Source: Pseudobacteriovorax antillogorgiicola | Lineage (GTDB): Bacteria > Bdellovibrionota_B > Oligoflexia > Oligoflexales > Oligoflexaceae | Reading direction: 5' to 3' | DNA length: 64,000 nt | Assembly (NCBI RefSeq): GCF_900177345.1 | Contig: NZ_FWZT01000003.1 | Coordinates: forward strand, 1-64,000 | Program-made: the position numbers and the translations under genes | Notes under the pieces: model-generated | What the model was told of the DNA's origin: nothing | The model's database searches: none | The model's input: the letters and a program-made list of their open reading frames with translations, nothing else | In this document: positions 1,978-26,433 of the stretch, piece by piece | Numbering within the stretch: position 1 is the stretch's first letter | How the letters are laid out: each line of letters opens with the position of its first letter

Positions 1978-3960
1978 TTAGCTAGCTTCTTTGAGGACAA
2001 CAGTCATGGTCGTCCCATGGTCATTAGGGTGATCCTCTTCATCTTTCGAATCAATTCTTAGCTGACCGCCGTATTTTTCTACATAAGATTTAACAATGGT
2101 CATACCGAAACCGGTCCCCTTTTCTCCCTCGGTACCCTGTCGACTTGTGGGCTTACCCACTTCAAAAAGATCCGTAAGCAGCTTATCGGGTATACCGATC
2201 CCTTGATCGATAAGACGGATAGCGATCCCATGATCCTTTTCTCTTGAAACCACAATAACGATCTTACCACCATGAGGACTAAACTTTATAGCATTTGACA
2301 TAAGATTGTTCAGGACTTCGTTGACAAGACTAACTTTCTCAGCCATGGCAATGAAATCCTGCTCGTCTGAAAAGGTCACGTCTAAACTGATTTCTTTCTT
2401 TGCTAAGCGTTCTTCAAAGGCAAAGCACATGTCATCCAAGGCTTCTCGCAAGTTGATAGGAACCAGATCCATAGCCTCTTTGCCGTCTTTAATAGCCTGC
2501 ATATGCTTGATGTGGTTTAGTATTCTTTCTTGGGTTTCAACCGCACGGATAATCTTGAGAATCAACCTTTGGCCCGCACTATCATCTTCTGGAACCCGAC
2601 GACTCAAAAGCTCAGCGGCACCAACGATAATCGAAAGAGGGTTGGCGATATCATGGGAGATCACCTTCACCAGTTGCTTGGTTTCCTGGACCTGAGCCTT
2701 TAATTCCTGATTGGTATCATCTAAACTCTTAGTTTTTTCGTCCACCTGCTCTTGCAAGTCTCTTGAAAGATAGGTCACCTGTTTAAGTGAAAGTGCATGA
2801 AAGTAGCCTTGCAGGAGCGACTGCGTAATGACAAAGCAAATTGAAAAATAGGGAGTAAGATAGGCACTATTGATGACTCTCTCGTTATAGAGAATATCGT
2901 TCACTACTCCTAGGGTCAAAATAACGAAACTGATCAACGAAGCCATGCCACCTGCTTCACGATTTTTAGTTGCAACCCACAAGCGACTCACAACATGAAA
3001 GACGGTGAGCGAAATATAGGTCTGTAGGGCGTATACAAAGGCGGTGTAGACTTGAGGTTGGAAATAGAGGCCCAGGCATAGTAGGGTAAAACCCATGACT
3101 GAATAGATCCGCAAAACAATTTTATATCGGAAGGGGTAAAGAGTATCGATATAAAAGAAAAACAACCAGGGTATGATCACACTTGTCAGATAACGCGTTC
3201 GATGGCGGCTTATATAACTCATATATTCAGAAGAATTGATGTCGGATACAGCAAGGATGCTGGAGTGATTGATAAAAAAAGCTAAACAGATCAGCCCCCA
3301 CCATAAATTTTCCCGTGAGCGTGGCCGCTGAATAAATAAGCCGAGATGATAGATCCCAAACATCAGTAGAATGCCAAAGATCGCCCCACCCAATAGATTT
3401 TGCTTGGTTTCGTATAGGTTAATATAGGCCGGTGACGCTAGGGTTACCGAATCACGAATGCCACTGCGACTGTGGGTCGCATTCGACACCTGAATAATGA
3501 GCAACAGCTCGGATTCATCGGGAACGATGACCTCATTCACTTCCAGATAGCTCGGTTCCGATCGCAATGGATCAGAATCGACCCTTCCCGACGCCCCTAC
3601 CATCTGGACCCTATCACGGCTTTTTATAAAATAGCGCCCACTCGTATAGACGTTAGGAATCATAACACCTAGCTCGCGATCTGTTTGCAAACCACGAATC
3701 ACAGCAACAAAGGTACCAACAAAAGATTGCCCCACAGGCACGATAGAGTCTTGAGGAATATCGACGACGTCCCAAGCCTGAAGATTTTGATAGTCCACAT
3801 CCTGGGGGTCGACGAGTTCACCACGCTTCAAGTACCAATGTCCATCAAGATAGAGGGGCTCGTCTTGCGTCCAAGAGCTTGCATCGAACACCTGCGCCAT
3901 GACAAGATCTGCTAACAGAAGGCAAACCAAGCTCAACAAGATGTGACAACGTGCAGTCAA
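1978..3960 (-). CDS. 7TMR-DISM-type sensor histidine kinase
   Basis: Membrane sensor kinase of 660 residues. It has a signal peptide (cleavage near VMA-QVF), a periplasmic domain of about 150 residues resembling the 7TMR-DISM extracellular sensor, seven hydrophobic segments (about residues 190-385), a coiled coil, an HisKA dimerisation helix with phospho-acceptor His436 in SHDIANP, and an HATPase domain with N (NEVLNNLMSNAIKFS), G1 (DQGIGIP) and G2 (GTGFGMTIV) boxes. The start is TTG at 3960, forming a TTGA overlap with the stop of the glutamine amidotransferase gene, so the two are probably translated together. No response regulator lies next to it, so the output partner is unknown. The function call is secure; the ligand is not visible. 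Confidence 0.88.
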   Translation of the reverse strand: MTARCHILLSLVCLLLADLVMAQVFDASSWTQDEPLYLDGHWYLKRGELVDPQDVDYQNLQAWDVVDIPQDSIVPVGQSFVGTFVAVIRGLQTDRELGVMIPNVYTSGRYFIKSRDRVQMVGASGRVDSDPLRSEPSYLEVNEVIVPDESELLLIIQVSNATHSRSGIRDSVTLASPAYINLYETKQNLLGGAIFGILLMFGIYHLGLFIQRPRSRENLWWGLICLAFFINHSSILAVSDINSSEYMSYISRHRTRYLTSVIIPWLFFFYIDTLYPFRYKIVLRIYSVMGFTLLCLGLYFQPQVYTAFVYALQTYISLTVFHVVSRLWVATKNREAGGMASLISFVILTLGVVNDILYNERVINSAYLTPYFSICFVITQSLLQGYFHALSLKQVTYLSRDLQEQVDEKTKSLDDTNQELKAQVQETKQLVKVISHDIANPLSIIVGAAELLSRRVPEDDSAGQRLILKIIRAVETQERILNHIKHMQAIKDGKEAMDLVPINLREALDDMCFAFEERLAKKEISLDVTFSDEQDFIAMAEKVSLVNEVLNNLMSNAIKFSPHGGKIVIVVSREKDHGIAIRLIDQGIGIPDKLLTDLFEVGKPTSRQGTEGEKGTGFGMTIVKSYVEKYGGQLRIDSKDEEDHPNDHGTTMTVVLKEAS

Positions 3961-4817
3961 GCGTCGTCCCTCCCTGCCGAGCGACCATAAGTCATCATCA
4001 TTGTTTGATCAGTAGCAAGGATGGCGCCAGGCAGCATCTCTTGCCAGAGGTTCTCACCATCGATCTGCTCCGAGGAGAACAAAAGATGGTTGACATACCC
4101 TGACCGACTTGGAGACTCACAAACTTCGTTAAAGCTGGGGCAGCTCTCCCGATCCGGGCATTTATTCTTGTAGGTGGAGTACCATAACGGTTGCCCACCG
4201 TGGTGGGCCGCCATGGCCTCTCCATTTGTGATGATAAACGTAAGGTAAGTTAAGCTGGGTTTACTGTGCTGTCGTTCGTAGGGGCCGATAATGTCGCAAA
4301 TCTTATTGACCGCAATCTTGATCGCTGCCACCAACGTCGTTGCTGTTATAGATCTCTCACGGAGGCTAACCTTGCGAGCAAGTTCTGCGAGGATAATAAA
4401 GAAAATAACTTCACTATCTGTATTACCTAGAATAAAGCGCCTCATTCCCATGGGAATCAAAGCCAATAGCTCATCTCGATAGGAATCGAATTGATTGATA
4501 TTGCCATTGTGGGCAAAGACCCATTTGCCATATTGAAAGGGATGAGTGTTCGCGACATTAACGGTTCCTAAAGTAGCCTTTCGCAGATGGGCGAGAACAG
4601 TTTGCGATGCAACAAGGCCACTGACCTTTTGAAAGAGGTGATCGTTGATTGCCGACGACTCCGACTTCATGACATGAGGGGAGCCTTCAATGTAATAGGC
4701 TACCCCCCAACCATCAGGATGATCGGAACTAAGGGTCATAAACGAATTTTCTGCTCCCACGAGAGAGCTGTGTACCTGGCTCTGGATCACGGAGCGAAAG
4801 CCAAACAAGCGACACAT
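3957..4817 (-). CDS. class II glutamine amidotransferase (YafJ-like)
   Basis: 286-residue Ntn-hydrolase glutamine amidotransferase. It begins MCRLFGFRS, so the N-terminal nucleophile Cys2 is exposed after Met removal. The glutamine-binding signatures HLRKATLG, NTHPF and FAHNGNI follow. There is no synthase domain, as in YafJ/Egt-type stand-alone amidotransferases, so the acceptor of the ammonia is unknown. AGGAG lies seven bases before the ATG. It overlaps the downstream sensor kinase by four bases (TTGA) and lies 47 bases after the formyl-THF cyclo-ligase gene, so the three probably form one transcript. In some bacteria related proteins modify small thiols or amino-sugar compounds; nothing here shows which applies. 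Confidence 0.88.
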   Translation of the reverse strand: MCRLFGFRSVIQSQVHSSLVGAENSFMTLSSDHPDGWGVAYYIEGSPHVMKSESSAINDHLFQKVSGLVASQTVLAHLRKATLGTVNVANTHPFQYGKWVFAHNGNINQFDSYRDELLALIPMGMRRFILGNTDSEVIFFIILAELARKVSLRERSITATTLVAAIKIAVNKICDIIGPYERQHSKPSLTYLTFIITNGEAMAAHHGGQPLWYSTYKNKCPDRESCPSFNEVCESPSRSGYVNHLLFSSEQIDGENLWQEMLPGAILATDQTMMMTYGRSAGRDDA

Positions 4818-4864
4818 ATATAGACTCCTGGTGCTTTCCTACTGGTCGGAAGAATCTTGAAAAA

Positions 4865-5431
4865 CTAAAGGTTTAAAGATGTTAGGCCGGATGAGAGGCA
4901 AGCGAACTGAATGGGTTGATCATAAGGCTCTGCCGGAACCCGGCTGATAAACTGCTTATCAAAAACTGGACAAATAGTGGTCAAATCTGGGTGTTTAGCT
5001 AAAAAGCGATCATAGAAACCGCCGCCATAGCCAAGGCGATAGCCTCTTTTATCAATCGCCAAGCACGGCACTAGAACGATGTCGCCCGTTGCTGGCTCGA
5101 CAGTAGCGGTGTCTCTAGGTTCTAGGATTCCGACACGGTTTTCATTAAAAACCCCATCTTTGGGCCATTCGAAAAACTCCATGATTCCGGCCTTCCAATC
5201 TAGAACCTTAGGCACCGCAAGACTGAGCCCCGATTGCAAACACATCTGGTGCACAGGCTCTAGGTCAAGCTCATCTTGGACTGCAAGATAGCTGAGAATG
5301 CGCCCCTTGTGATTTCGATCTAAAAGGTAAGAGATGAGATGCTTATGGATCGCAGTTTCTTGGTCCTTGCGTTGGGGCAGTGTCTTTCTGAGGACACGCA
5401 TGTCATTTCGTAGCTGCTGCTTTTTATCCAT
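4865..5431 (-). CDS. fau: 5-formyltetrahydrofolate cyclo-ligase
   Basis: Cytosolic ATP-dependent enzyme converting 5-formyl-THF to 5,10-methenyl-THF in one-carbon metabolism. At 188 residues it has the normal family length. The C-terminal signature RLGYGGGFYDRFL (ATP/Mg-binding loop) is intact. The N-terminal basic segment (KQQLRNDMRVLRKTL) and the VLVPCLAIDKRGYRLG stretch match the family. The start ATG is preceded by an AGGAGG-like site. Neighbours on the same strand are the amidotransferase downstream and oligoendopeptidase F upstream, 59 bases away. Confidence 0.93.
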   Translation of the reverse strand: MDKKQQLRNDMRVLRKTLPQRKDQETAIHKHLISYLLDRNHKGRILSYLAVQDELDLEPVHQMCLQSGLSLAVPKVLDWKAGIMEFFEWPKDGVFNENRVGILEPRDTATVEPATGDIVLVPCLAIDKRGYRLGYGGGFYDRFLAKHPDLTTICPVFDKQFISRVPAEPYDQPIQFACLSSGLTSLNL

Positions 5432-5490
5432 GATTCCTCCTGACTCAATATAGCGAGCCAGGAAGGAATTGCAATGGGAGGATGAACAGC

Positions 5491-7350
5491 CTAGCTATTC
5501 GCCTTCTTGTCTTGGAGAATTTTTTCCATCTCTTTCATATACTCATTCGCCTTATTGATCATCGGTGTGTAGGCGTCTGGCTTCGTCATATCGAGGCCTG
5601 CATCGATGAATAACTCATGAGGATATTTCGAGCCACCGGCACCTAGCATCGTCAGGTACCGGTCCAAGGCTTCCTTGTCACCAGCTAGAATCTTTTCTGC
5701 AAAGTTGAAAGCCGCTGCAATCGAGGTGGAATAAGTATAAACGTAGAAGCCGTAGTAGAAGTGGGGAACGAACGCCCATTCAGTGTGGTAGCTGGGGTCA
5801 ATGTGAACAACACCCTCTTTATGACCATAGTAACGCTGTAGGATGTTCCCGTAGATCTCTGAAATTTTCTGCCCAGAAAGAGCCTCACCCTTCTCCACGG
5901 CATCATGTAGCTTCAGCTCAAACTCAGCAAACTGAGTTTGTCTGAAAAACGTGGTTCTCAAAAAGTTCATTGCATAGTCTAAGTAGAAGAGTCGCTCGCC
6001 ATCAGTTTTCGCGTTCTTCAAACTATGATCCAATAGCAGTACCTCATTGACGATTGCCGCAGTTTCCGCCACAAATGTCGCGTAGCGAGCTTTTGCAAAG
6101 TCTTGCTTCTCATTGCTCAGGACAGAATGTAAGGCGTGACCCCATTCATGGGCATAGGTCGAAGCAGAGTTATAATCATCCTGGTGATTTAAGAAAACAT
6201 AGGGATGAACATCATACGCAACACCACTCATGAACGCGCCACCACGCTTGCCCTTTCTTGGGTAAAGATCCATCCATGCCTTGCCTGTCGCATCTTTCAA
6301 GCGCTCTTGATAGTCACCCCCTAAAGGAGCCACTGCCGCTAGCAGATCCTTTCGAGACTGATCGATAGTGTAGTCTTTGTCGATCTTAAGCAGGGTGGGA
6401 TATAAATCATGGTACTCCATGGTTTTCAAACCCATGATGTCTTTCTTTAACTTCAGGTAACGATGAAGGGTAGGAAGATTTTTTTCCACTTGGCTTACTA
6501 GGTTGCGATAAACTTCTTCAGGAAGTTGGTTGCTACCGAGGGCAGCGCTTAGGGCATTCGGGTAGTTTCTTATTTTGGCAGTGGTCACACGATTCTGGAC
6601 ACTTTGATAGAGGGTCAAGCCAAAGGTTCTCTCGTACTGCTTTAGAGTACTATAGAACGCTTCAAAAACCATTTTCCGATCATCTCTGTTTTTAGACTGC
6701 CGAACCTTGCCATAACCAGCAGCGTTGGCTACCACCTTCGACCCGTCGCTCAAGGTGACGGTAGGATACTCAATATCAGCGTTCGATAGCATGCTATAGA
6801 CGCCAACAGAGCCTCCAGCAAGTGGTTGCATCGCCGATAGAATCTTCTCTTCTTTCTGGCTCAAAATATGCTTCGCCTGAATTCTCGCATTTCGTAAATA
6901 CTGATCGAATGCTTTGAGTTTCTTATTTTCAACTAAAAAGCGCTTCAATTTCGTTTCGGGTAGAGTCGCCAACTCTGGCTCGACAAAGGCAAACTGGGTT
7001 TGGATATCTCGACTCAAGCTTTGGGTTAGCTGACTTTGTTCGATATGGGTCCTGTTCTGACTGTCGCTAGCCATTTGCAAACTCGCCCAAGTCGAAATCC
7101 GGTAAAGTTCCTTACGAACACCCGATATTTTGCTGAGGCAAGAGTAAAGGTTCTTAGAATTCGCGAGCATCGTCCCCTTGCAGCTATCCACTTGTTTAGC
7201 GTCACCCTTGACTTCGTCTATTGCTTTCAGCCAAGCGCTTTTAGATGGGTAAAGCTCGGTGAGATCCCACTCGGGTCCTTTTGTTTCGGCCCATGCCGGA
7301 CTGCTTGCACTCGCAACAATGGCGATGGAGCATAAAAACTTTGGTATCAT
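5491..7350 (-). CDS. pepF: secreted oligoendopeptidase F (M3B family)
   Basis: Zinc oligopeptidase of the M3B/PepF family, 619 residues. The metal site HEWGH (His401 to His405) sits in the usual STYAHEWGHALHS context, and the third-ligand region ETAAIVNEV follows about 30 residues later. Unusually for PepF, which is normally cytosolic, the protein begins with a clear Sec signal peptide (MIPKFLCSIAIV..., cleavage near AWA-ET), so it should act in the periplasm or outside the cell on short peptides. It has AAGGGG before the ATG and a plausible promoter just upstream (7371-7399), so it probably starts its own transcript, which could continue into the folate gene. Confidence 0.92.
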   Translation of the reverse strand: MIPKFLCSIAIVASASSPAWAETKGPEWDLTELYPSKSAWLKAIDEVKGDAKQVDSCKGTMLANSKNLYSCLSKISGVRKELYRISTWASLQMASDSQNRTHIEQSQLTQSLSRDIQTQFAFVEPELATLPETKLKRFLVENKKLKAFDQYLRNARIQAKHILSQKEEKILSAMQPLAGGSVGVYSMLSNADIEYPTVTLSDGSKVVANAAGYGKVRQSKNRDDRKMVFEAFYSTLKQYERTFGLTLYQSVQNRVTTAKIRNYPNALSAALGSNQLPEEVYRNLVSQVEKNLPTLHRYLKLKKDIMGLKTMEYHDLYPTLLKIDKDYTIDQSRKDLLAAVAPLGGDYQERLKDATGKAWMDLYPRKGKRGGAFMSGVAYDVHPYVFLNHQDDYNSASTYAHEWGHALHSVLSNEKQDFAKARYATFVAETAAIVNEVLLLDHSLKNAKTDGERLFYLDYAMNFLRTTFFRQTQFAEFELKLHDAVEKGEALSGQKISEIYGNILQRYYGHKEGVVHIDPSYHTEWAFVPHFYYGFYVYTYSTSIAAAFNFAEKILAGDKEALDRYLTMLGAGGSKYPHELFIDAGLDMTKPDAYTPMINKANEYMKEMEKILQDKKANS

Positions 7351-7370
7351 GTTATTCCCCTTGATAGCAT

Positions 7371-7399
7371 GTCATATTGATTGTGAAGATACTTGCCAA
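7371..7399 (-). promoter_or_regulatory. probable sigma70-type promoter of pepF
   Basis: On the minus strand TTGGCA (7399-7394) and TATGAC (7376-7371) are separated by exactly 17 bases and lie about 20 bases upstream of the pepF ATG. This was judged by eye only. Confidence 0.4.
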
Positions 7400-7552
7400 G
7401 CCGCAAAATAGTCGCCTGCCCGTCTGTTTCATAACATGTATAAAATTAAGCATTCCTAAGGCTTTAGGCAATGAGCCAGAGATCACAGCCCACTTTCACT
7501 GAGGGAGCGACACACTTTTCAGACTGAATGAGTGGGTAATCTTCAGGGCTGG

Positions 7553-7588
7553 GATAAAAAAAGCTCCCACCAAAACTGATAGGAGCTT
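7553..7588 (-). terminator. rho-independent terminator after the acidic membrane protein gene
   Basis: Minus-strand hairpin AAGCTCCT/GGGAGCTT (arms within 7561-7588) followed directly by a run of T (7562-7555). It lies 24 bases after the stop of the gene at 7612-8640 and closes the envelope block. Confidence 0.8.
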
Positions 7589-7611
7589 AGATATATTATA
7601 AAACAAAGGGC

Positions 7612-8640
7612 TTATTGAACGGAGACATTCCGGATATATTGCCATTCCCAACGACCTGAAACCTCTGAGAAAGCTCCGACGCGAATATCGTAAGATCCTG
7701 GGGAAACTCCCTGAAGAGCGACACTGGTTCCTGAAGTGCCAAAGCGATGCTGTGGTTGCGCGAAGCTGGCACCTGCTGCGACCATTTCTACGGAGTAACG
7801 CGCTATTTTATCCCCAGCCTGCCAGGCAACCACACCGCCGTTGGCAGCTAGACTCCCCCCTTCTGCCGGCTGCGAAACAGGGAAGCTTCGCCGCTCAGGG
7901 GCCATAACTCTAAACATTCGCACTTCACTCGCGCCATCAGCGTTAACCACTTGCCAGTACCAGGTACCAGGATAAGGATGTTCTAAAGCATAATAAGTCG
8001 CACCGTTGAGAGGTACTGACTTACTCAATGGCTGCATATTCGGGCTTCGTGAAAAGTTGATCCTATCTGCTGGACCTTCCCAAGTGAACTCTGCTGGCGC
8101 CATGGTTTCATCGTACGGTCGCCGAGCCCCGCTCTGAGGCGCGACCAAGGTGAAGTCGCCGGTCGAGACCGGAGCTTCAGCCGCAGCTTCCATTCCTGCC
8201 ATGTCGTCCATACCCTCTTCCATGGGCGCCTCTCCAGACATATCTTCTTCCATCGGGGCATCGTCTTCAGCCATATTTTGGTCTTCATCATCGATCATCC
8301 CAACATCATCAAGATCTTCCGCGTCTTCTGGGAAAGCATCATCTGCCATCTCATCTGCGAATTCATCTTCGAAGGGATCACTGCCTGGATCGGTCATAAT
8401 ATAAGCGATGGCTGAAAGGGCTAGGATGACGACGGCACCAATCGCTATGTACTTGGTGCGATTCTCAGAGCTAAAGCTACTGCTCTTAAAGATCTGAGAT
8501 ACTGCATTGGTGTTTGTACCAAAGTCGCTTGAAAACTCTCCCTTCAAATCCCCTGTAAACGGATTCGTGCTGGCCTGAGTATCCGGGCTTGTGTTGGTAT
8601 TAAAAGCTACGTTCGAATTCGGATCGTTATTATCGTTCAT
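7612..8640 (-). CDS. membrane-anchored protein with acidic linker and C-terminal beta-rich domain, unknown function
   Basis: Not recognised. I choose the ATG at 8640 (MNDNNDPNSN), preceded by GGAG; 342 residues. It has a cytosolic Asn/Asp/Thr-rich N-terminus, one transmembrane segment (YIAIGAVVILALSAIAYIM, about residues 66-84), then about 65 residues dominated by Asp, Glu, Ala and Met (DDEDQN, PMEEDM, GEAPMEEGM). The C-terminal 160 residues hold two similar-looking beta-sandwich-type units, each with a Trp motif (TFEWEG-like and WYWQVVN; later WEWQYIRN). The layout suggests an inner-membrane anchor presenting a periplasmic binding domain on a charged spacer. It lies 131 bases downstream of msbA on the same strand, so a role at the envelope is possible but is inference. 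Confidence 0.75.
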   Translation of the reverse strand: MNDNNDPNSNVAFNTNTSPDTQASTNPFTGDLKGEFSSDFGTNTNAVSQIFKSSSFSSENRTKYIAIGAVVILALSAIAYIMTDPGSDPFEDEFADEMADDAFPEDAEDLDDVGMIDDEDQNMAEDDAPMEEDMSGEAPMEEGMDDMAGMEAAAEAPVSTGDFTLVAPQSGARRPYDETMAPAEFTWEGPADRINFSRSPNMQPLSKSVPLNGATYYALEHPYPGTWYWQVVNADGASEVRMFRVMAPERRSFPVSQPAEGGSLAANGGVVAWQAGDKIARYSVEMVAAGASFAQPQHRFGTSGTSVALQGVSPGSYDIRVGAFSEVSGRWEWQYIRNVSVQ

Positions 8641-8771
8641 CCCCGACTCCATAGAGAGACAATGAATCACTCGACTCAATACAAGAGGCTCCAAGAGAAT
8701 GCCCCTATAACAAGTGTAGTCTAATGCGCCATGTCATTTCAATATGGAGGGAAATATTTGCAGCCCTGGGA

Positions 8772-10595
8772 TCAGTCATGAGCGGTCTGGAGGTAGTCCT
8801 CATAGCGTTTGTCGGCCATCAGGCTCTCGTGAGACCCATTCAAAATGATTCGCCCACTCTCCACAAACCAAACTTCGTCAAACAAAGAAAGCCATCGGAG
8901 TCGATGAGTGATAAACAGTAGCCCAACTTGATCATCCTTCGCTTTTTTAATGGCCAGCTTGGTGATGGTCTCCTCATTGCTGGCATCGACAGCCGAGGTT
9001 GCTTCATCCATCACTAAAAAGGAACGTTGGCGTAGCAATGCCCGGCAAAGAACCAAACGTTGCAACTGTCCACCGGAAAAATTTGAACGAACAGACGCAA
9101 CGGGGCTATCAAGCCCATCGGCTAAGGACTCAATCAAATCTTTCAAGCTCAGTTGCTCTAAAAGTTGCCACATTTCATGATCACTAGCCGGAGCGGGAAG
9201 ACCGTAATTAAGGTTCGCTCGAATGGTGTCAGAGAAGAAAAATGGCCGCTGGCTGACAAATGAACACTCTTGGGCAAGATCTTCCCAGCTGCAATCATCA
9301 CATTCCCAGGTAAGCGGCTTGATTAATCCCACAAGTGATTTGATGAGGGTGCTTTTGCCAGAACCACTGGGCCCGACAATAGCTACCGTCTTGCCACGAA
9401 CCAAGTGTAGATCTTCGCAAACGATCGCAGCCACTTGGTTATAACCACTTCGAAGGGTTCTAATTTGGATGGCATCAGGGACGGGGCGACCCTGATGGTG
9501 CAGCCTACTATCCTCGAATTGGGACGCTAGCTGAAAGATCGAAAGGCTTTCTTTAAGGGCTCCTGCGGTTTCTTGAATCCGAGCGAACTGCTCCCCCAAA
9601 ACTTTAAGAGGCTTCAAAAGAAGGCCCAATGCACCAAAAAATTGAATGAGTTCCGCAGGGCCAAAATCGGGAATCCAAATGCTTTGTGCCATCAGAAAAA
9701 GAACGACAGCAAAGATGACAAAGCCACTAAACTCCGTTGCAGGACCCATTACAGCCCGTAAAAAGATACTTTTGCGGATCATCTTGTAGTAGTCATCATT
9801 GAGGCGATCGAATAGCTCCAGCTCTCGCCTTTCACCACCCTGCGCACGAATAAAGTTAAATCGTTGCCTCAATGACAGAATACGAGCAGACATGCCTGCC
9901 AACCGCCTTTGCCAAGCATCTGCATAGGCAGATATCTTGCGTCCCTTTCTCCCTAGATAGACGAAGAAAAATGGAGAAAGCAGCAACAGCACCAATGCGG
10001 TAGGCCAGTGGAGCAAAAACATTACGAAAAATGCCGAGACGATCAATACCGAGTCTTTGACCACACTTGATAGAACCTCGGAAAATCGCGATTGGAGATA
10101 AAGAACATCGTTCATGACCAATGACATCCAATCACCAGGCATCCGGCGAGAAATTTCGCTATATGGCATCCCTACTACAGCAGCAAACAAGCGGTCTCGG
10201 TAACGCTTGGCAACATGAAATGCCAAAGCCTGCTGGTTGTAATGGAAAAAAAAGGAAGATAGGCCTTTTACCAGAGCTGCAACAAACATGGCCGCGGGCA
10301 CACCGTAGGTTAACTGCTGCCGCTCGATCGTAATACCACCAAGTCTTGGTATGACTTCCATGATGCTTTCTGGCAGCAGGGCACTTAAATGAATCATCCC
10401 CGCTTCAACACCAAGCCCGAACAGGCCCTTGAAAAATGGCCCCACTAGCAGAATCAACAGACTCTGGGAGCTTGAGAGCCCGAGAAGTGCAACGATGATA
10501 ATAAAAACACGACTGGGTTGATCAAATATAGGGGAAATAAAAAGCGCCCGAAATCTCTCACGGGCGCTACCTGGCAATCTTAAGTTGGATATCAT
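8772..10595 (-). CDS. msbA: MsbA-like lipid A/lipid ABC exporter (fused permease-ATPase)
   Basis: Half-transporter of 607 residues that dimerises in the inner membrane. It has six transmembrane helices (about residues 30-330) and a C-terminal ATPase with Walker A GPSGSGKST, signature FSGGQLQR, Walker B FLVMDEATS and switch His in FITHRL. Its start overlaps the stop of lpxB by an ATGA, tying it to the lipid A genes and supporting flipping of lipid A core as its job. Homologous exporters of peptides or other lipids share the architecture, so the substrate is inferred from context. Confidence 0.85.
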   Translation of the reverse strand: MISNLRLPGSARERFRALFISPIFDQPSRVFIIIVALLGLSSSQSLLILLVGPFFKGLFGLGVEAGMIHLSALLPESIMEVIPRLGGITIERQQLTYGVPAAMFVAALVKGLSSFFFHYNQQALAFHVAKRYRDRLFAAVVGMPYSEISRRMPGDWMSLVMNDVLYLQSRFSEVLSSVVKDSVLIVSAFFVMFLLHWPTALVLLLLSPFFFVYLGRKGRKISAYADAWQRRLAGMSARILSLRQRFNFIRAQGGERRELELFDRLNDDYYKMIRKSIFLRAVMGPATEFSGFVIFAVVLFLMAQSIWIPDFGPAELIQFFGALGLLLKPLKVLGEQFARIQETAGALKESLSIFQLASQFEDSRLHHQGRPVPDAIQIRTLRSGYNQVAAIVCEDLHLVRGKTVAIVGPSGSGKSTLIKSLVGLIKPLTWECDDCSWEDLAQECSFVSQRPFFFSDTIRANLNYGLPAPASDHEMWQLLEQLSLKDLIESLADGLDSPVASVRSNFSGGQLQRLVLCRALLRQRSFLVMDEATSAVDASNEETITKLAIKKAKDDQVGLLFITHRLRWLSLFDEVWFVESGRIILNGSHESLMADKRYEDYLQTAHD

Positions 10596-20123: not shown

Positions 20124-20149
20124 GCCTCCCTCTCGGGAGGCTTTATTTT
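20124..20149 (+). terminator. rho-independent terminator after the epimerase gene
   Basis: GCCTCCC (20124-20130), TCTC loop, GGGAGGC (20135-20141), then TTTATTTT. It is a strong hairpin 35 bases after the stop. Confidence 0.9.
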
Positions 20150-20212: not shown

Positions 20213-20944
20213 TTGGTGAAACTCAAAATTTACACCATTCTCCTATTGAATTTGATTGCCAGCCTTCCAAGCTTTGGTGAGACTTTAGGCGTCTTTACAT
20301 CAAGCATGACCCAAGCTCGGCAACTGAAGCGCAACTTAAGGCAAGACCCCCTACTCAAAGACCATCGCATACTAGTCTTCTCTCGCCAGCGAGACTTCGA
20401 TCGAGCGGCAAAGTTCGAGAAGTTTGATTTCACCATCTTACCCTCTCGATATCCCGTTAGATCGGACCAATATGAGGCCTTGTTTCAATTGACTAGGCAG
20501 GGAGCTGCTACGTTTCGATATCAAATTATCACCTTGGAAGAGCGTTGGCGGGATATCAAGAGCTCTCCGCCAATCCTTGGAGCTTTCGATGAGTTGGGCC
20601 GACGCAACATGAATCAATTCGCGAAATCTATTTTCCCGAAATACCAATTCAAGCGAATTAAGCTCAGCGGCAAGCTCAAGGATTTATACCCCATGTTAGC
20701 CTTAGGTAATGTGGAAGTCATCATGATCGATCCCCAGGTTTTAGAAACCATCCGCAAAGATTCAAAGGCCACGCCGATCTTAATCGATCAATCGGAGCCT
20801 GTGGCTCTGCCAAAGATCTTTGTTAAGAAGGGCCATAAAAGCCCTCTCAATACCACTCTTGCAAACCTTAAAAAAGCAACCCTTCAAGCCTTAGGGGTGG
20901 ATGATCTGAAGCGGATCACATCCGAAGGAGGGACATCACGATGA
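20213..20944 (+). CDS. periplasmic solute-binding-like protein (sensor accessory)
   Basis: 243-residue exported protein with signal peptide (cleavage near SFG-ET), resembling a small type-2 periplasmic binding protein (PhnD/SBP-like: phosphate/phosphonate or amino-acid-type fold). The start is TTG at 20213 or GTG at 20216, with AAGGA 7-10 bases upstream. It overlaps the next gene by ATGA. No permease or ATPase is nearby. Instead it is followed by a second binding protein and a kinase, so it most likely presents a ligand to the kinase rather than feeding a transporter. Family assignment is by overall pattern only. Confidence 0.7.
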   Translation: MVKLKIYTILLLNLIASLPSFGETLGVFTSSMTQARQLKRNLRQDPLLKDHRILVFSRQRDFDRAAKFEKFDFTILPSRYPVRSDQYEALFQLTRQGAATFRYQIITLEERWRDIKSSPPILGAFDELGRRNMNQFAKSIFPKYQFKRIKLSGKLKDLYPMLALGNVEVIMIDPQVLETIRKDSKATPILIDQSEPVALPKIFVKKGHKSPLNTTLANLKKATLQALGVDDLKRITSEGGTSR

Positions 20945-21930
20945 GAACACTCCAGCGACTCATTACTACTTGCTTATTGCTGACTGCAGGCATAGTAATA
21001 CTCGCGCCTCAAGCTCTCTACAGCGATACGAAGCCGACAATACTTGTTGTTCGTCAACAACAACAATTATTCGAAGACTTCTACAAGATATTAGAAGTCG
21101 AGCTAGGTTCGTATCAACTCCATGATTTTATTCTTAAACCAAAACCGGACTACGATCGATTCAAAGCGGAAATCAACCAACGAAAGCCACAGCTACTGAT
21201 TCTGCTGGATAACACCTCAATTGACTTCGCCCAGCGTTATAACAGAAAGGCAGCGAATCCCATTTTTGCGGTGGCGACTATGGGATTAAATCTCAAACAT
21301 GTCCTGCAAGCTTCAAATTTCATTTCAGGGGTCGCCTTTGAGGTGCCTATTTACACATCGATTGTAGCCTTGCGATCCATCAGTAAGAAGCCTATCCGGC
21401 GAGTGCTCACCGTTTATCGCAAGGATGAATTTGCAGCCTTTATTGCCGATGCACGACACCAACTGAAGCGGGAGCAGATCATTCTATCTGGATTCGCAGT
21501 TGATCAATATATGGGAAATAGCGAGTCACTGAACCGCGCCCTCAAGAAAACCCTTCGTACCCGTCACGGCAAAAAACAATTCGATGCAATATGGGTGATG
21601 TCCGACAACCGCCTAATGAATCGCAATAACTTTCGCGACCTTTGGCTTCCTAAAGCTCAGGAACTGGACATTCCCTTTGTTTGCGGCTTGAAGTACCTCG
21701 CAAAGCCAGATCTCGACTTCTGTACCTTCGCAGCAACCCCAGACCTCAAAGATCTCGGTGCCCAGATTGCCGACCAGGTACTTCTCATACTAGATGAAGG
21801 TCACCACCCCAAGGAACTTGGTGTTGAGTATCTGCTCTCCCCTCAATTTACCATCAATAAGCGTAAGGCTCAGGCCATCGACTTCGAATTCTCGGTGGAA
21901 CAGGAAGGCTCGATCGAGGTGGTCGAATGA
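20941..21930 (+). CDS. ABC_sub_bind-type periplasmic binding protein
   Basis: 329 residues, signal peptide to about residue 28, then a type-1 periplasmic binding fold of the ABC_sub_bind (TrpX-like) group. Visible features are TILVVRQQQQLFEDFY at the first strand, PQLLILLDNTS, the hinge AVATMGLNLKHVLQ, and DAIWVMSDNRLM with PFVCGLKYLAKPD in the second lobe. It overlaps both neighbours by ATGA, so the trio is translated as a unit. Members of this family usually serve ABC importers, but many stand-alone copies work as sensors upstream of kinases; context favours sensing here. Confidence 0.78.
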   Translation: MRTLQRLITTCLLLTAGIVILAPQALYSDTKPTILVVRQQQQLFEDFYKILEVELGSYQLHDFILKPKPDYDRFKAEINQRKPQLLILLDNTSIDFAQRYNRKAANPIFAVATMGLNLKHVLQASNFISGVAFEVPIYTSIVALRSISKKPIRRVLTVYRKDEFAAFIADARHQLKREQIILSGFAVDQYMGNSESLNRALKKTLRTRHGKKQFDAIWVMSDNRLMNRNNFRDLWLPKAQELDIPFVCGLKYLAKPDLDFCTFAATPDLKDLGAQIADQVLLILDEGHHPKELGVEYLLSPQFTINKRKAQAIDFEFSVEQEGSIEVVE

Positions 21931-24521
21931 TGAGCCTTTCGAACTCGATCCGAGCGAAGACTATCGGTTTTGCACTTTCGGTGGTGTTGCTCTCGACCCT
22001 TTTTATTTCTGTGGGCCTATATTTTTCCATAAGTCAGCTGGTAGAACAATTTAGCGATGAATCAAGCAAACAATTTCAACTTATGGAAAATCAATTGCTC
22101 GCCGGGTCGGAAGAAACTCGTGCGAAGATAAAGGCTATTTTTGAAGAGCAAGCCCTAAGGAAGGCCAAGAACACCATCATTCGCGACGCTCTCGTCCTGA
22201 AGGTCCCTTTTTTAGAAAACTCCCACTCCTCCATCAATACCTATCTTGACGAAATTGTAGCGATCGACGCAGATATCGTATCGGCACTGTTTTTCTCAGT
22301 AGAGGATGGGCGGGCAAAGGCTTGGTTTCTTAAACAAGCGAACCTCACACAACCGATTAGCTACCAAACCCTCTATGATCAGGACTCTAAGGCCTGGATT
22401 TCCTACGACGAGCAAGGGCGCGAGTTTCTGCGGGTTCCTGACCACACCGCACCGCAAATTATGGCAAGTCAGGGACTGTCGATGCATCGTCGAACCCTTA
22501 AACTGGAGCAAAGCGGTCCGCCAATTCCAGTTTATGAGATCTCGATTCCAGTTTTTGAGGGAGAAAAAGATGATCTTCGTGAACTTATGGAGGATGGTGA
22601 GCCCATTGGTTTCCTAAGGTATCACTACTCCTTAGCAGGACTGCAAACTGCTGTTCAAACGGAAAAACAGCTGGCACAAAATAAATTACAGGATCTACAA
22701 AACAGGATTGCCAACATAAAACGTTCGTCTGTTGATGCAACTCAAGAATCAATCCGCAACTCCATCATCCTGACCCTTGTGGTCTTAGGTGGCGCTGTGA
22801 CCGTTGCAATCTTCATTAGCTTTTTGATGTCTCGTCGATTTATAGAGCCGATTCTAAATTTGCAACAAGCTGCACAGCGAATCTCAGAAGGGAACTACCG
22901 TGATAGCATTGTTCCTGAAACACAAGACGAGTTAGGTTCGCTCGCTGCATCCTTTGAGAAAATGAGAATTGAAGTCAAGGACTACACAGAAAACCTTCAA
23001 ACTATGGTCGATGAAAGGACTCACTGGCTTAATGAGACCCTGATGGAACTAGCAAAAACAAATCGTAGTATGAAAGTTCTTTTGGATCACATCAACCAAG
23101 GCGTTTTCGTGATAGGACGTCGTTACAAGGCTCTCGACGAGCACTCGCACAAGCTATGCCTGATTCTAGAGACAGACTTGATTGCAGGAGAAACCATAGA
23201 TAGCCTGCTTCTTGACCACTCAAATCTTAGACCTGAAGCAAAATTGGCCGTCCGTTCATTGCTAAACGCCTCTCTCAATGAAAATACATTAAACTTTGTC
23301 GCCAATGCCCACATATTACCCAAAGAGATCATTTACCAACGGGGTGACAGCTCAAGCAAAATTATCGAAATCGAGTGGAATATGATCGAAGATGATAGCG
23401 ACTGCGTTGCTGCTATTCTGGTGACCGTGCACGACGTTACCGAGTTAAGACAGCTACAACGTGAAAGCGTCGAGAAGCAAAAGGTTATTCAATACATCGA
23501 AGAGATGATTGAAACAGAAAGCCGTTCATTCATAACCTTTATTGACCAAGCTATTCATACTTTGCATCATGCATTGCAAGTCATTTCAGAGAGTAGCACA
23601 CCCTCGTTACAGGATGCTAAAACCATCTTTCGTCAGCTTCATACAATTAAAGGTAACGCCGCAACTATCGGCCTTCGCATCTTATCCCAAGTGGTTCACG
23701 AAGCGGAGATTCCGTTCAAGCGAATTATCGATGGCCAAACCACCACGCGGGAGGATATTCTCCCTGCCATGAGAGACGTTTCACACTGCCTGGAGGAGTA
23801 TAGCCGTATTCACAATGAAGTTTTAAAGCGAGATAGTGGATTAGAAGGCTATGATGATCTTAAGCTACAATCTGTGACTCTTTTGCTCGAACTCAATCAT
23901 TGGCAGGATATTGACTACCAGATGCTCGATGAAGTCATTCATGGCCAAAAGATCTATACAGCAATTCTCGCGCCGTACTGCAAACGTTTGATCGACGCCC
24001 ACCGTGCATCCGATCGAGTTACCGTGCATTGGCAGGCACCCTTTCCTATTTTCCTTGAGGCCCATCGCTACTTTAAAGTCAGAGATTGCCTGACTCACCT
24101 GATTCGTAACTCTATCGATCATGGGCTCAGTAAATCCGACGACGATCAGCAAATCGTGGTATCGATCACATTCGAGCCCTATGATCATTTTTTGCGAATT
24201 CACTACCGGGATGATGGACAAGGAATTTCTCTTCGGCAAATTAGGGCCAAAGCCGAAGAGCGCCGTCTAGCATTAGATCAGAGAAGTCTTCAGGAAGTAG
24301 CAGACTTAATTTTTGAACCTGGTTTTAGCACCAGTGATACTGCTACTGATGTTTCGGGCCGTGGCATGGGCATGGACATCGTGCGACACGAACTAGAGTC
24401 TCTGGGAGGCTCTATTGCCGTTAAAGTGGATGAGAATACGGCCGAAGATCGACTTCCCATCCACTTTCAAATGACTATTCCACTGCACGCGAGCAATGAC
24501 CACCATCAAAAAAGCTCTTAA
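21927..24521 (+). CDS. CheA-like hybrid sensor kinase with HAMP, PAS-like and Hpt domains
   Basis: 864-residue membrane kinase. TM1 is about residues 10-32, a large periplasmic domain runs from about 33 to 280, TM2 about 283-305 is followed by a HAMP domain and a coiled coil, and a PAS-like region spans about 380-510. An Hpt domain follows with phospho-acceptor His572 in FRQLHTIKGNAA, then a CheA-type HATPase (LIRNSIDHGL, DDGQGIS, GRGMGMDIV). The receptor-coupling CheW-like (P5) domain of true CheA is missing. It is coupled by ATGA to two periplasmic binding protein genes, which probably dock on its extracytoplasmic domain. No receiver is encoded in the operon; the convergent regA gene downstream has its own kinase. 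Confidence 0.88.
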   Translation: MMSLSNSIRAKTIGFALSVVLLSTLFISVGLYFSISQLVEQFSDESSKQFQLMENQLLAGSEETRAKIKAIFEEQALRKAKNTIIRDALVLKVPFLENSHSSINTYLDEIVAIDADIVSALFFSVEDGRAKAWFLKQANLTQPISYQTLYDQDSKAWISYDEQGREFLRVPDHTAPQIMASQGLSMHRRTLKLEQSGPPIPVYEISIPVFEGEKDDLRELMEDGEPIGFLRYHYSLAGLQTAVQTEKQLAQNKLQDLQNRIANIKRSSVDATQESIRNSIILTLVVLGGAVTVAIFISFLMSRRFIEPILNLQQAAQRISEGNYRDSIVPETQDELGSLAASFEKMRIEVKDYTENLQTMVDERTHWLNETLMELAKTNRSMKVLLDHINQGVFVIGRRYKALDEHSHKLCLILETDLIAGETIDSLLLDHSNLRPEAKLAVRSLLNASLNENTLNFVANAHILPKEIIYQRGDSSSKIIEIEWNMIEDDSDCVAAILVTVHDVTELRQLQRESVEKQKVIQYIEEMIETESRSFITFIDQAIHTLHHALQVISESSTPSLQDAKTIFRQLHTIKGNAATIGLRILSQVVHEAEIPFKRIIDGQTTTREDILPAMRDVSHCLEEYSRIHNEVLKRDSGLEGYDDLKLQSVTLLLELNHWQDIDYQMLDEVIHGQKIYTAILAPYCKRLIDAHRASDRVTVHWQAPFPIFLEAHRYFKVRDCLTHLIRNSIDHGLSKSDDDQQIVVSITFEPYDHFLRIHYRDDGQGISLRQIRAKAEERRLALDQRSLQEVADLIFEPGFSTSDTATDVSGRGMGMDIVRHELESLGGSIAVKVDENTAEDRLPIHFQMTIPLHASNDHHQKSS

Positions 24522-24527
24522 CTGAAC

Positions 24528-25079
24528 TTAGCGATTCGGTGGGAACTTTTTAAGCTTTCGCTGCAAGCTTTGGCGACGAATTCCCAACCAGTCAGCGGCG
24601 TGGGTAATGTTGCCATTGCATTTAGCAAGAACATACTCGATGTATTCGCTCTCACGCCTAGCAAGGCTAATGCGCTCACCAGACTCTGTCTCGTTCTTAA
24701 CGGGATCGTCCTCTTCCACAACATCCAAAAGCGCGTCTACCACCTGGTCCATAGAAACTGGCTTCGTTAGGTAGTTCGCAGCACCAAATTTCATTGCTTC
24801 TACCGCTGTGGAAATGGTTCCATAGCCAGTAAAGAGAACAACCCGCATGTCGGGGCGACCTTCTTTGAGCCGTTTCAAACATTCAAGACCAGAGTCCTGA
24901 TTAAGTCTCAGATCAACTAAGCCATACTGAGTGGATTCCAGCCTATCTTTGTCGAGGTTTTTCCAATTATCAGACCCATAAGCCTCAAAGCCTCGCGCTC
25001 CGAGTTCAAGGATAAGGCTCTCGCGAAAATCCTCATCGTCCTCTAGAACCAACAATTTTGGTCTTGCATTATCTTCCAT
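24528..25079 (-). CDS. regA: RegA/ActR/PrrA-type response regulator
   Basis: 183-residue DNA-binding response regulator. The receiver domain has an acidic pocket (EDDED), phospho-Asp56 (VDLRL), Thr in LFTGYGT and Lys in LTKPVS. A short linker leads to a Fis-type helix-turn-helix at the C-terminus (NITHAADWLGIRRQSLQRKL), the hallmark of the RegA family. The start is ATG 25079 with GAGGAAG five bases upstream; the longer frame to 25115 lacks a site. It overlaps the regB-like gene by 11 bases. RegA relatives control redox-linked genes such as respiration and electron sinks. Confidence 0.88.
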   Translation of the reverse strand: MEDNARPKLLVLEDDEDFRESLILELGARGFEAYGSDNWKNLDKDRLESTQYGLVDLRLNQDSGLECLKRLKEGRPDMRVVLFTGYGTISTAVEAMKFGAANYLTKPVSMDQVVDALLDVVEEDDPVKNETESGERISLARRESEYIEYVLAKCNGNITHAADWLGIRRQSLQRKLKKFPPNR

Positions 25080-26433
25080 AATTCTTCCTCGATATTCTAA
25101 ATGAAATCCTTGCACCTTTATCTAAATTTTCGACGTCCAAGCGCCCACCAAGCAATTGGCTAATAAGCTGGGCATGATAGATTCCAAGCCCACTTCCGCC
25201 AACTTTTTGAGAGTTAAAAGGTTCGCCAAAATATTCCAAAACTTCTGGAGGAAACCCAGGGCCTTCGTCGTCGATTGAAAATGTGATGTACTTATCATCG
25301 TGGCTCAACGACAGGCGTACACAACCGCACTTATCATCCATGGCTTCGGCGGCGTTATCCAATAGATCTAGTACCACCTGGGTGACAGCACCAACAGGCA
25401 GTGCCACCATGTAGGTCGGAAAATCATGAGACCGTATCCGAATCCGACCATTGTTCTCGCTTCTAAGCCAAGAGTCAGCGGTTTCATCGATCAACTTACC
25501 GAAATCAACCGTTTCCAAAACTGTTTTCTCAGGATCTACCTGGATATCCGCCAGCTTTTTCAACGCTGACTGTGCTTTCTTCAGAGAAACCTGAATCGAT
25601 TCGATATTGTCGATGAGGTCATCATCGGTGCCTTCATAATCCCGCTTAATTCGGTCGAATCTGATGCCAATGTTATTGAGCGGAGTCGCAAGCTGATGGC
25701 AAACGCCAGACGATATGGCTCCAATCGCACGCAATCGATCCATGCGCAACCGGGCTCGCTTTAGATGCTCCACCTGCTCGCCCTGCTGAAAAAGCTTCGT
25801 AATCAACGATCCACAAATCATCATTAAGCTCACTCCGACCACAGATTCGACCACCATGTCAACGAATGGCTGGGTCCAGGGAACGGCGTTGGGAATGTCC
25901 CTTCGAAACACTTTTTGTAGCAGAACAATGTCGACGATTAACACCGATCCATAGATCATCGAGTGCTGTGATCGCAAGGCCATCGACGCGAGCGTCGCGT
26001 AAATAAAGATCAGAGAGCTAAATGGATTATTCCAACCGCCTGTCATGGCGAGTAGAGTTGATAATTGGATCAGATCGAAATATAGGCCGACAAGTACCAG
26101 CTGCCTTGGATGGAAGTCCCAAGGTGAATCTTTCCTATAAATGTAATTAAAGATCACATTGTATAGAGGAACCAAGCCCATCACGAAAATGTACCAGAGA
26201 ATATTGCTCTGATCGACAAAGCCGAGAAGCAGTGCAGGAATAAGACTGATAAACTGCAATATACTCACCAACCACCGTAGGCGAGTAAACCATTGCAGCA
26301 AATCGATATCTTCACCAGGATTCTTGAGCTGTTCCAGCCAACGTTTCAACCGCAAGCTCCTTTCCGCATCGTCTTCAACTTCCGCACTCCCCACTGGAAG
26401 CCCCATCTTAGCAAGAGTCAATTGTTTCCCCAA
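25069..26433 (-). CDS. regB: RegB/PrrB-type redox sensor histidine kinase
   Basis: 454-residue membrane kinase with six hydrophobic segments (about residues 48-215), a phospho-acceptor His246 in the box GVCHQLATPLNNI and an HATPase domain (LDLLDNAAEAMDD, DDEGPGFP, GGSGLGIYHA). The heptapeptide GGWNNPF (residues 132-138) matches the GGXXNPF quinone-binding motif of RegB, so it probably reads the redox state of the quinone pool. I see no Cys in the linker after the His box, where RegB carries its redox Cys, so that second input may be absent. The start is TTG at 26433 or ATG at 26406; neither has a clear ribosome site. Confidence 0.87.
   Translation of the reverse strand: MGKQLTLAKMGLPVGSAEVEDDAERSLRLKRWLEQLKNPGEDIDLLQWFTRLRWLVSILQFISLIPALLLGFVDQSNILWYIFVMGLVPLYNVIFNYIYRKDSPWDFHPRQLVLVGLYFDLIQLSTLLAMTGGWNNPFSSLIFIYATLASMALRSQHSMIYGSVLIVDIVLLQKVFRRDIPNAVPWTQPFVDMVVESVVGVSLMMICGSLITKLFQQGEQVEHLKRARLRMDRLRAIGAISSGVCHQLATPLNNIGIRFDRIKRDYEGTDDDLIDNIESIQVSLKKAQSALKKLADIQVDPEKTVLETVDFGKLIDETADSWLRSENNGRIRIRSHDFPTYMVALPVGAVTQVVLDLLDNAAEAMDDKCGCVRLSLSHDDKYITFSIDDEGPGFPPEVLEYFGEPFNSQKVGGSGLGIYHAQLISQLLGGRLDVENLDKGARISFRISRKNYGR

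Follow-up and report, generated by a model that had tools for sequence, protein, structure and literature searches.

Three translationally coupled genes of Pseudobacteriovorax antillogorgiicola encode two periplasmic binding proteins of unlike folds, SBP2 and SBP1, together with a CheA-type Hpt kinase, and the best explanation is that Oligoflexia related to Pseudobacteriovorax have a duplicated module for envelope sensing, of which this trio is one copy. The trio lies in the window analysed here, a stretch of 64,000 nucleotides from contig NZ_FWZT01000003.1. In our analysis, the trio is best read as a kinase that is fed by binding proteins and signals to an unlinked receiver, a reading that we regard as moderately probable.

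Organization of the trio

As shown in Table 1, the open reading frames and the overlap coordinates agree in joining the three genes by two ATGA overlaps, as an earlier reading of this DNA from its letters (the sequence-only reading) had described. The start of SBP2 may equally be GTG 20216, which is just as good as TTG 20213, and inspection of the sequence located an AGGAGG 5' of SBP1. The hairpin found between the upstream gene and the trio is suggestive of a terminator that may separate the two, in a consensus scan that is weak, with five sites found compared with a shuffled mean of 4.5.

Table 1. Positions of the trio genes and of the features assigned to them on contig NZ_FWZT01000003.1
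Feature	Position	Strand	Basis
Terminator-like hairpin between upstream gene and trio	20124..20141	+	Consensus scan
SBP2 gene	20213..20944	+	ORF, 243 aa, start TTG 20213
ATGA overlap SBP2/SBP1	20941..20944	+	Sequence
SBP1 gene	20941..21930	+	ORF, 329 aa
ATGA overlap SBP1/kinase	21927..21930	+	Sequence
Kinase gene	21927..24521	+	ORF, 864 aa
Kinase sensor region, residues about 37-274, predicted periplasmic	22035..22748	+	AlphaFold2 and structure match
Kinase HAMP, residues 300-349	22824..22973	+	Pfam
Kinase Hpt, residues 534-595	23526..23711	+	Pfam
His572 in HTIKG, predicted phosphoacceptor	23640..23642	+	Motif; alignment
CheA-type HATPase_c, residues 719-836	24081..24434	+	Pfam; partial match to NCBIfam CheA models

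Structures and families of the two binding proteins

SBP2 begins with an N-terminal hydrophobic signal-like segment and has no match in Pfam. An AlphaFold2 model built from eight homologues (pLDDT 80.6, pTM 0.71) and its structure matches bear out the type II fold that had been proposed for it. PtxB, ArrX, AioX and PhnD stood high among the Foldseek matches of the model, with a best E of 1.2e-10, and in a second structure comparison the PhnD-like proteins reached Z values of 15-16.5 over 211-219 residues, whereas other type II proteins remained well below this set at a Z of about 11. For AioX and ArrX, the Z values were 15.2-16.2, with 211-217 residues aligned and an rmsd of 3.3-4.2. By its model, SBP2 belongs with the PhnD-like type II periplasmic binding proteins, PtxB, ArrX and AioX being the nearest. 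PhnD-like proteins have a conserved SxSG oxyanion motif, which appears to be replaced in SBP2 by a conserved DExGR stretch. Searches of the PDB sequences gave no match to the SBP2 profile at E <= 1 and nothing convincing with the single sequence. The pocket residues listed for AioX in the accessible part of PMC5908839 include Cys106, which has no counterpart in SBP2, a protein that contains no cysteine, and arsenite sensing by SBP2 by analogy with AioX is thus not supported.

SBP1 resembles an ABC_sub_bind-like type I periplasmic binding protein. With regard to the earlier assignment to type-1 ABC_sub_bind, the family profile matched PDB entry 3lft (E 1.1e-5), and the Pfam score against PF04392 ABC_sub_bind (23.5 bits, E 3.8e-5) falls just under the curated cut-off of 25.9.

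Structure of the kinase and its sensor

The kinase has two hydrophobic windows, one with starts at 10-21 and the other at 275-285, and the AlphaFold2 model of its first 300 residues (pLDDT 84.8) has long helices around one Cache-like domain; both agree with the proposed periplasmic sensor, itself a prediction. The best match of the sensor model was the extracellular domain of WalK, with a Z of 12.7, an rmsd of 2.4 and 143 aligned residues, and further matches were CitA (Z 11.3) and DctB (Z 10.6), Foldseek's own matches being weaker. For the sensor, the prediction is one Cache/PDC domain carried by long helices that link it to the membrane. A search of the PDB sequences with the sensor profile was uninformative, its one match being an engineered protein.

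The HAMP domain, the Hpt domain with His572 and the CheA-type ATPase described in the sequence-only reading are upheld by Pfam matches and by the intact CheA-like N and G boxes (724, 762 and 811). The PAS-like region that it placed in the kinase is not: Pfam gave no PAS match at E <= 0.1, and one paralog gave a PAS_4 score of 20.2 bits, under the cut-off of 23.1. In its Hpt phosphoacceptor and ATPase boxes the trio kinase is like CheA, whereas it differs from CheA in having its own membrane sensor and HAMP and in having neither a CheW-like domain (PF01584), as had been noted before, nor a match to H-kinase_dim (P3, PF02895). No receiver domain was found in the kinase and no response regulator was found linked to it; the nearest receiver gene (24528-25091, Response_reg and HTH_8) is convergent and stands beside its own histidine kinase.

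Recurrence of the trio in related genomes

A first search covered 38 genomes, namely the P. antillogorgiicola assembly (G000) and relatives, and a profile search covered 58 genomes, for which the class and the phylum are the same set. SBP1 was found at nine places and SBP2 at eight in the 38 genomes, all in one set of four genomes. Strong matches to the SBP1, SBP2 and sensor-domain profiles were confined to G000, G001, G003 and G022, four of the 58 genomes: SBP1 was matched three, three, two and one times, SBP2 three, three, one and one times, and the sensor domain four, two (one of them in two pieces), one and one times, respectively. Marginal SBP1 matches occurred in two other genomes (E 9e-5 and 3e-4). 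The trio copies of G000 are C3, which is that of the window, C6 and C13.

SBP2 adjoins SBP1 in all eight places, often overlapping or abutting, and the pair is located directly 5' of six of the eight sensor-family kinases, including G001:C87, in which a 153-aa ORF lies between the pair and the kinase. The trio, for which a search in other genomes had been proposed, recurs as diverged copies, and homologous kinases are not always found without the binding proteins. The sensor kinase of G000:C16 has no adjacent binding-protein gene, and G022 has kept both its sole pair and its sole sensor kinase, on separate contigs. An adjacent kinase is absent from three of the nine SBP1 loci (G001:C65, G003:C180 and G022:C151). 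Because the copies are about 25-35% identical to one another, they are old duplicates or orthologues. In distance matrices of seven sets, in which the distances are near saturation, SBP2 and the sensor showed no co-divergence (r -0.10), and SBP1 and the sensor a weak correlation (r 0.47, a value reached in 249 of 5040 permutations).

Homology was not supported for the small ORFs 3' of SBP1 in G001:C87 and G022. In one scan with narrow peptide patterns, the kinase alone had no relative in the named genomes outside the phylum; with similarly narrow patterns, three SBP1 sequences matched only Pseudobacteriovorax sp. DT_89 (G001) among the named genomes, and a scan of plasmids gave no relatives.

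Exchange of the kinase half and the kinase repertoire

At G003:C2, the SBP2 and SBP1 genes precede a kinase in which a sensor of the trio family is followed by HAMP-HisKA-HATPase-REC-HATPase. The presence of this sensor on a HisKA hybrid kinase means that the binding proteins track the sensor domain and not the CheA-type transmitter. The input module, consisting of the sensor and both binding proteins, is the conserved unit, and the kinase half has been exchanged in one relative. In a tree of 78 transmitter halves, those of the trio kinases did not form one clade: the node at which they join takes in the entire tree.

The kinase repertoire of G000 is large, with about 70 CheA-type kinases without CheW beside about 100 HisKA matches. 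The genome has 85 Hpt and 104 HisKA matches, and a profile search of the stretches around the Hpt sites gave 84 kinase-like ORFs, 75 of them above 100 bits. Among the 74 C-terminal kinase halves scanned, Hpt was matched in 63, CheW in five and H-kinase_dim in three. CheW is missing from 69 of these 74 CheA-type kinases, so a CheA-like kinase without CheW is the norm in G000 and is not the novelty of the trio.

A same-strand binding-protein gene lies within 150 bases of at least six of the 75 kinases, a lower bound as selected neighbours only were scanned. These are the three trio copies, C5 and two kinases with SBP_bac_3 downstream; a seventh fell below the cut-off. The C5 operon (L149, G000:C5:134500-146500, 2829-7934), with SBP_bac_8 upstream of an Hpt/CheA-type kinase and Peripla_BP_4 downstream, is a second type II, kinase and type I unit, built from unrelated families. 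G001 contains an SBP_bac_1-kinase pair (L060 364-4334). 7TMR-DISM sensors occur within or beside Hpt kinases at L127 5014-6940, L126 13113-15128 and L132 3149-5116, and these cases include one SpoIIE phosphatase domain and one weak guanylate-cyclase match.

TonB-dependent receptors, the PnrA-like protein and permeases

A TonB-dependent receptor adjoins five of the nine SBP1 loci, being located beside SBP2 at G000:C6, G000:C13, G001:C65 and G001:C87, and convergent and just 3' of the kinase at G001:C91. The receptor gene at G001:C87 is a plug-bearing ORF of 283 aa only, and the sensor kinase at the same locus is split into two ORFs (L060 7710-10297 and 12538-13389), reflecting either decay or an assembly error. 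A third binding protein, which is PnrA-like (PF02608, Bmp), is found at G000:C6, G001:C65 and G003:C180, the last of which has SBP1 and lacks SBP2. Across the four genomes, PF02608 has four strong matches, and the remaining one, at G000:C37, also adjoins a TonB receptor; here (L171, G000:C37:15000-30000, 6551-9776) the PnrA-like protein and a receptor of the type seen at the trio loci occur without SBP1, SBP2 or kinase, and the downstream genes look phage-like by eye. The window copy has neither a TonB receptor nor a PnrA-like protein, and one has to go about 79 kb beyond the kinase to reach the closest plug match of the contig.

A general linkage between TonB receptors and CheA-type kinases is weak (nine of 34 plug matches within 5 kb compared with 4.0 expected, P 0.015), and the adjacency reported here is based on the SBP1 loci. 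TonB-dependent receptor genes also lie 5' of Hpt kinases on the same strand at L145 5323-11680 and L083 1258-6601, and at L145 an SBP_bac_3-like gene, below the cut-off, lies between the two.

No permease was identified among the ORFs examined at the SBP1 loci. BPD_transp_2, the family from which permeases for binding proteins of the PnrA and PF04392 types would be expected, was matched twice in G000 (on contig C33 in both cases, at a distance from the trio loci), eight times in G003, twice in G022 and not at all in G001, which is 94% complete and has three SBP1 copies and one Bmp; the argument from permease absence holds fully for G001 only.

Comparison with known systems

LuxP is a type I binding protein. 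In LuxP-LuxQ, as in the proposed reading of the trio, a binding protein signals to a sensor kinase with a periplasmic PDC/Cache sensor, but LuxQ has tandem PDC domains, whereas the trio has one predicted Cache domain and an added type II protein (PMC8534201, in the part available). In the AioX-AioS-AioR and ArrX systems, a PhnD-like type II binding protein is encoded with a sensor histidine kinase (accessible text of PMC5908839); the trio differs from these in the additional type I protein, the CheA-type Hpt kinase, the lack of a linked response regulator and the cysteine-free SBP2. CuaD-CuaS-CuaR and other two-SBP three-component systems share with the trio two SBP genes encoded with a sensor kinase, but in those systems an ABC importer uses one of the SBPs and the kinase has a linked response regulator, and for the trio neither importer nor linked regulator was found (PMC10384115, sections on these systems). 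As far as the literature cited here describes them, SBP-kinase systems mostly consist of one sensory binding protein and one kinase. The trio has the coupled binding-protein and membrane-kinase genes of SBP-dependent three-component systems, with a sensor predicted to lie between two TM helices; a linked response regulator is usual in such systems, but not universal.

The sequence-only reading had called the arrangement uncommon. This stands for the coupling of two unlike folds to a kinase, but not for the CheA-derived kinase, nor for the number of binding proteins: two-SBP systems are known that divide sensing and delivery to an importer between the two SBPs (PMC10384115, same sections), and therefore a second SBP near a kinase is nothing new in itself. 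What differs here is that two unlike folds are translationally coupled to a kinase, that neither a permease nor a linked response regulator was identified, and that TonB receptors occur at related loci. No published account of the arrangement was found among the open-access papers listed in literature searches.

Proposed mechanism and alternative explanations

The trio is suggestive of a permease-less multi-binding-protein sensor, a module of the cell surface, and the mechanism proposed here is based on its anatomy and on the related systems named above. A solute would enter the periplasm, at several paralogs via the TonB-dependent receptor, and would be captured by SBP2, by SBP1 or by both. 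The loaded binding protein would dock on the dimer of the Cache sensor, in rough analogy to the action of LuxP on LuxQ and the presumed action of AioX on AioS, the HAMP domain would carry the signal on to the CheA-type ATPase, the ATPase would phosphorylate Hpt His572, and the phosphoryl group would then pass from His572 to a receiver. This receiver is taken to be unlinked because the kinase has none of its own and the closest receiver gene is part of a separate convergent HK/RR pair. The two folds may correspond to two ligands, as in the dual-ligand sensor of the sequence-only reading, or to a sensor accompanied by a scavenger or adaptor; one or other of the proteins could serve uptake or act as an adaptor.

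That the genes are chance neighbours of a common kinase type is hardly credible: G000 has 75 similar kinases, several with other secreted neighbours, but in three genomes, and at low identity, the same two SBP families accompany the same sensor family, a recurrence in diverged paralogs that goes beyond chance. A sensory module is favoured by the signalling proteins AioX and ArrX among the top matches of the SBP2 fold and by the C5 operon in the same genome. Counting against it are the SBP1 loci without a kinase, the G000:C16 kinase without a binding protein, and the distances to the sensor, uncorrelated for SBP2 and weakly correlated for SBP1. Cache domains often bind ligands themselves, and direct binding by the Cache domain of the trio kinase would likewise count against a binding-protein-fed sensor. 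In an alternative explanation, the binding proteins would belong to TonB-linked uptake, with the kinase regulating this route and sensing its signal directly through the Cache domain. In favour of it are the receptors at five of the nine SBP1 loci, the three loci without a kinase and the finding that AgtS bound neither neighbouring SBP, from which adjacent sbp and kinase genes may be functionally unlinked (PMC11113362, as far as its accessible text goes). We consider such an uptake route unlikely, as no permease was identified at the SBP1 loci and BPD_transp_2 is absent from G001, a TonB receptor is missing from the surroundings of the window copy, and the sensor domain and the SBP pair share one genome distribution.

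A tentative but quite possible alternative is that a single binding protein is the co-sensor, the other scavenging solutes, delivering to the first or having lost its ligand. One sensing and one uptake SBP are described for loci of Ruminiclostridium, C. beijerinckii and G. stearothermophilus (PMC10384115, in the same sections), SBP1, unlike SBP2, weakly tracks the sensor, and G003:C180 combines SBP1 with Bmp and dispenses with SBP2. However, SBP2 stands beside SBP1 wherever it was found, and the precedents have the ABC importer that the SBP1 loci appear to lack. Decidedly improbable, in our estimate, is a trans-envelope module in which the TonB receptor would admit the signal, two to three unlike binding proteins (PhnD-, ABC_sub_bind- and PnrA-like) would combine their ligands on one Cache sensor, and this sensor would be plugged onto exchangeable Hpt/CheA or HisKA hybrid kinases, the binding proteins serving signalling alone, as a coincidence detector and not for transport.

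In conclusion, a binding-protein-fed kinase with an unlinked receiver is the reading that we retain for the trio. From the kinase-half swap in G003 it is evident that inheritance of the input side is modular. A recurrent unit of two unlike SBPs, often with an outer-membrane receptor and with no identified permease, would allow tests of how proteins that bind solutes in the periplasm turn into mere signalling components, and of how one Cache sensor integrates signals.
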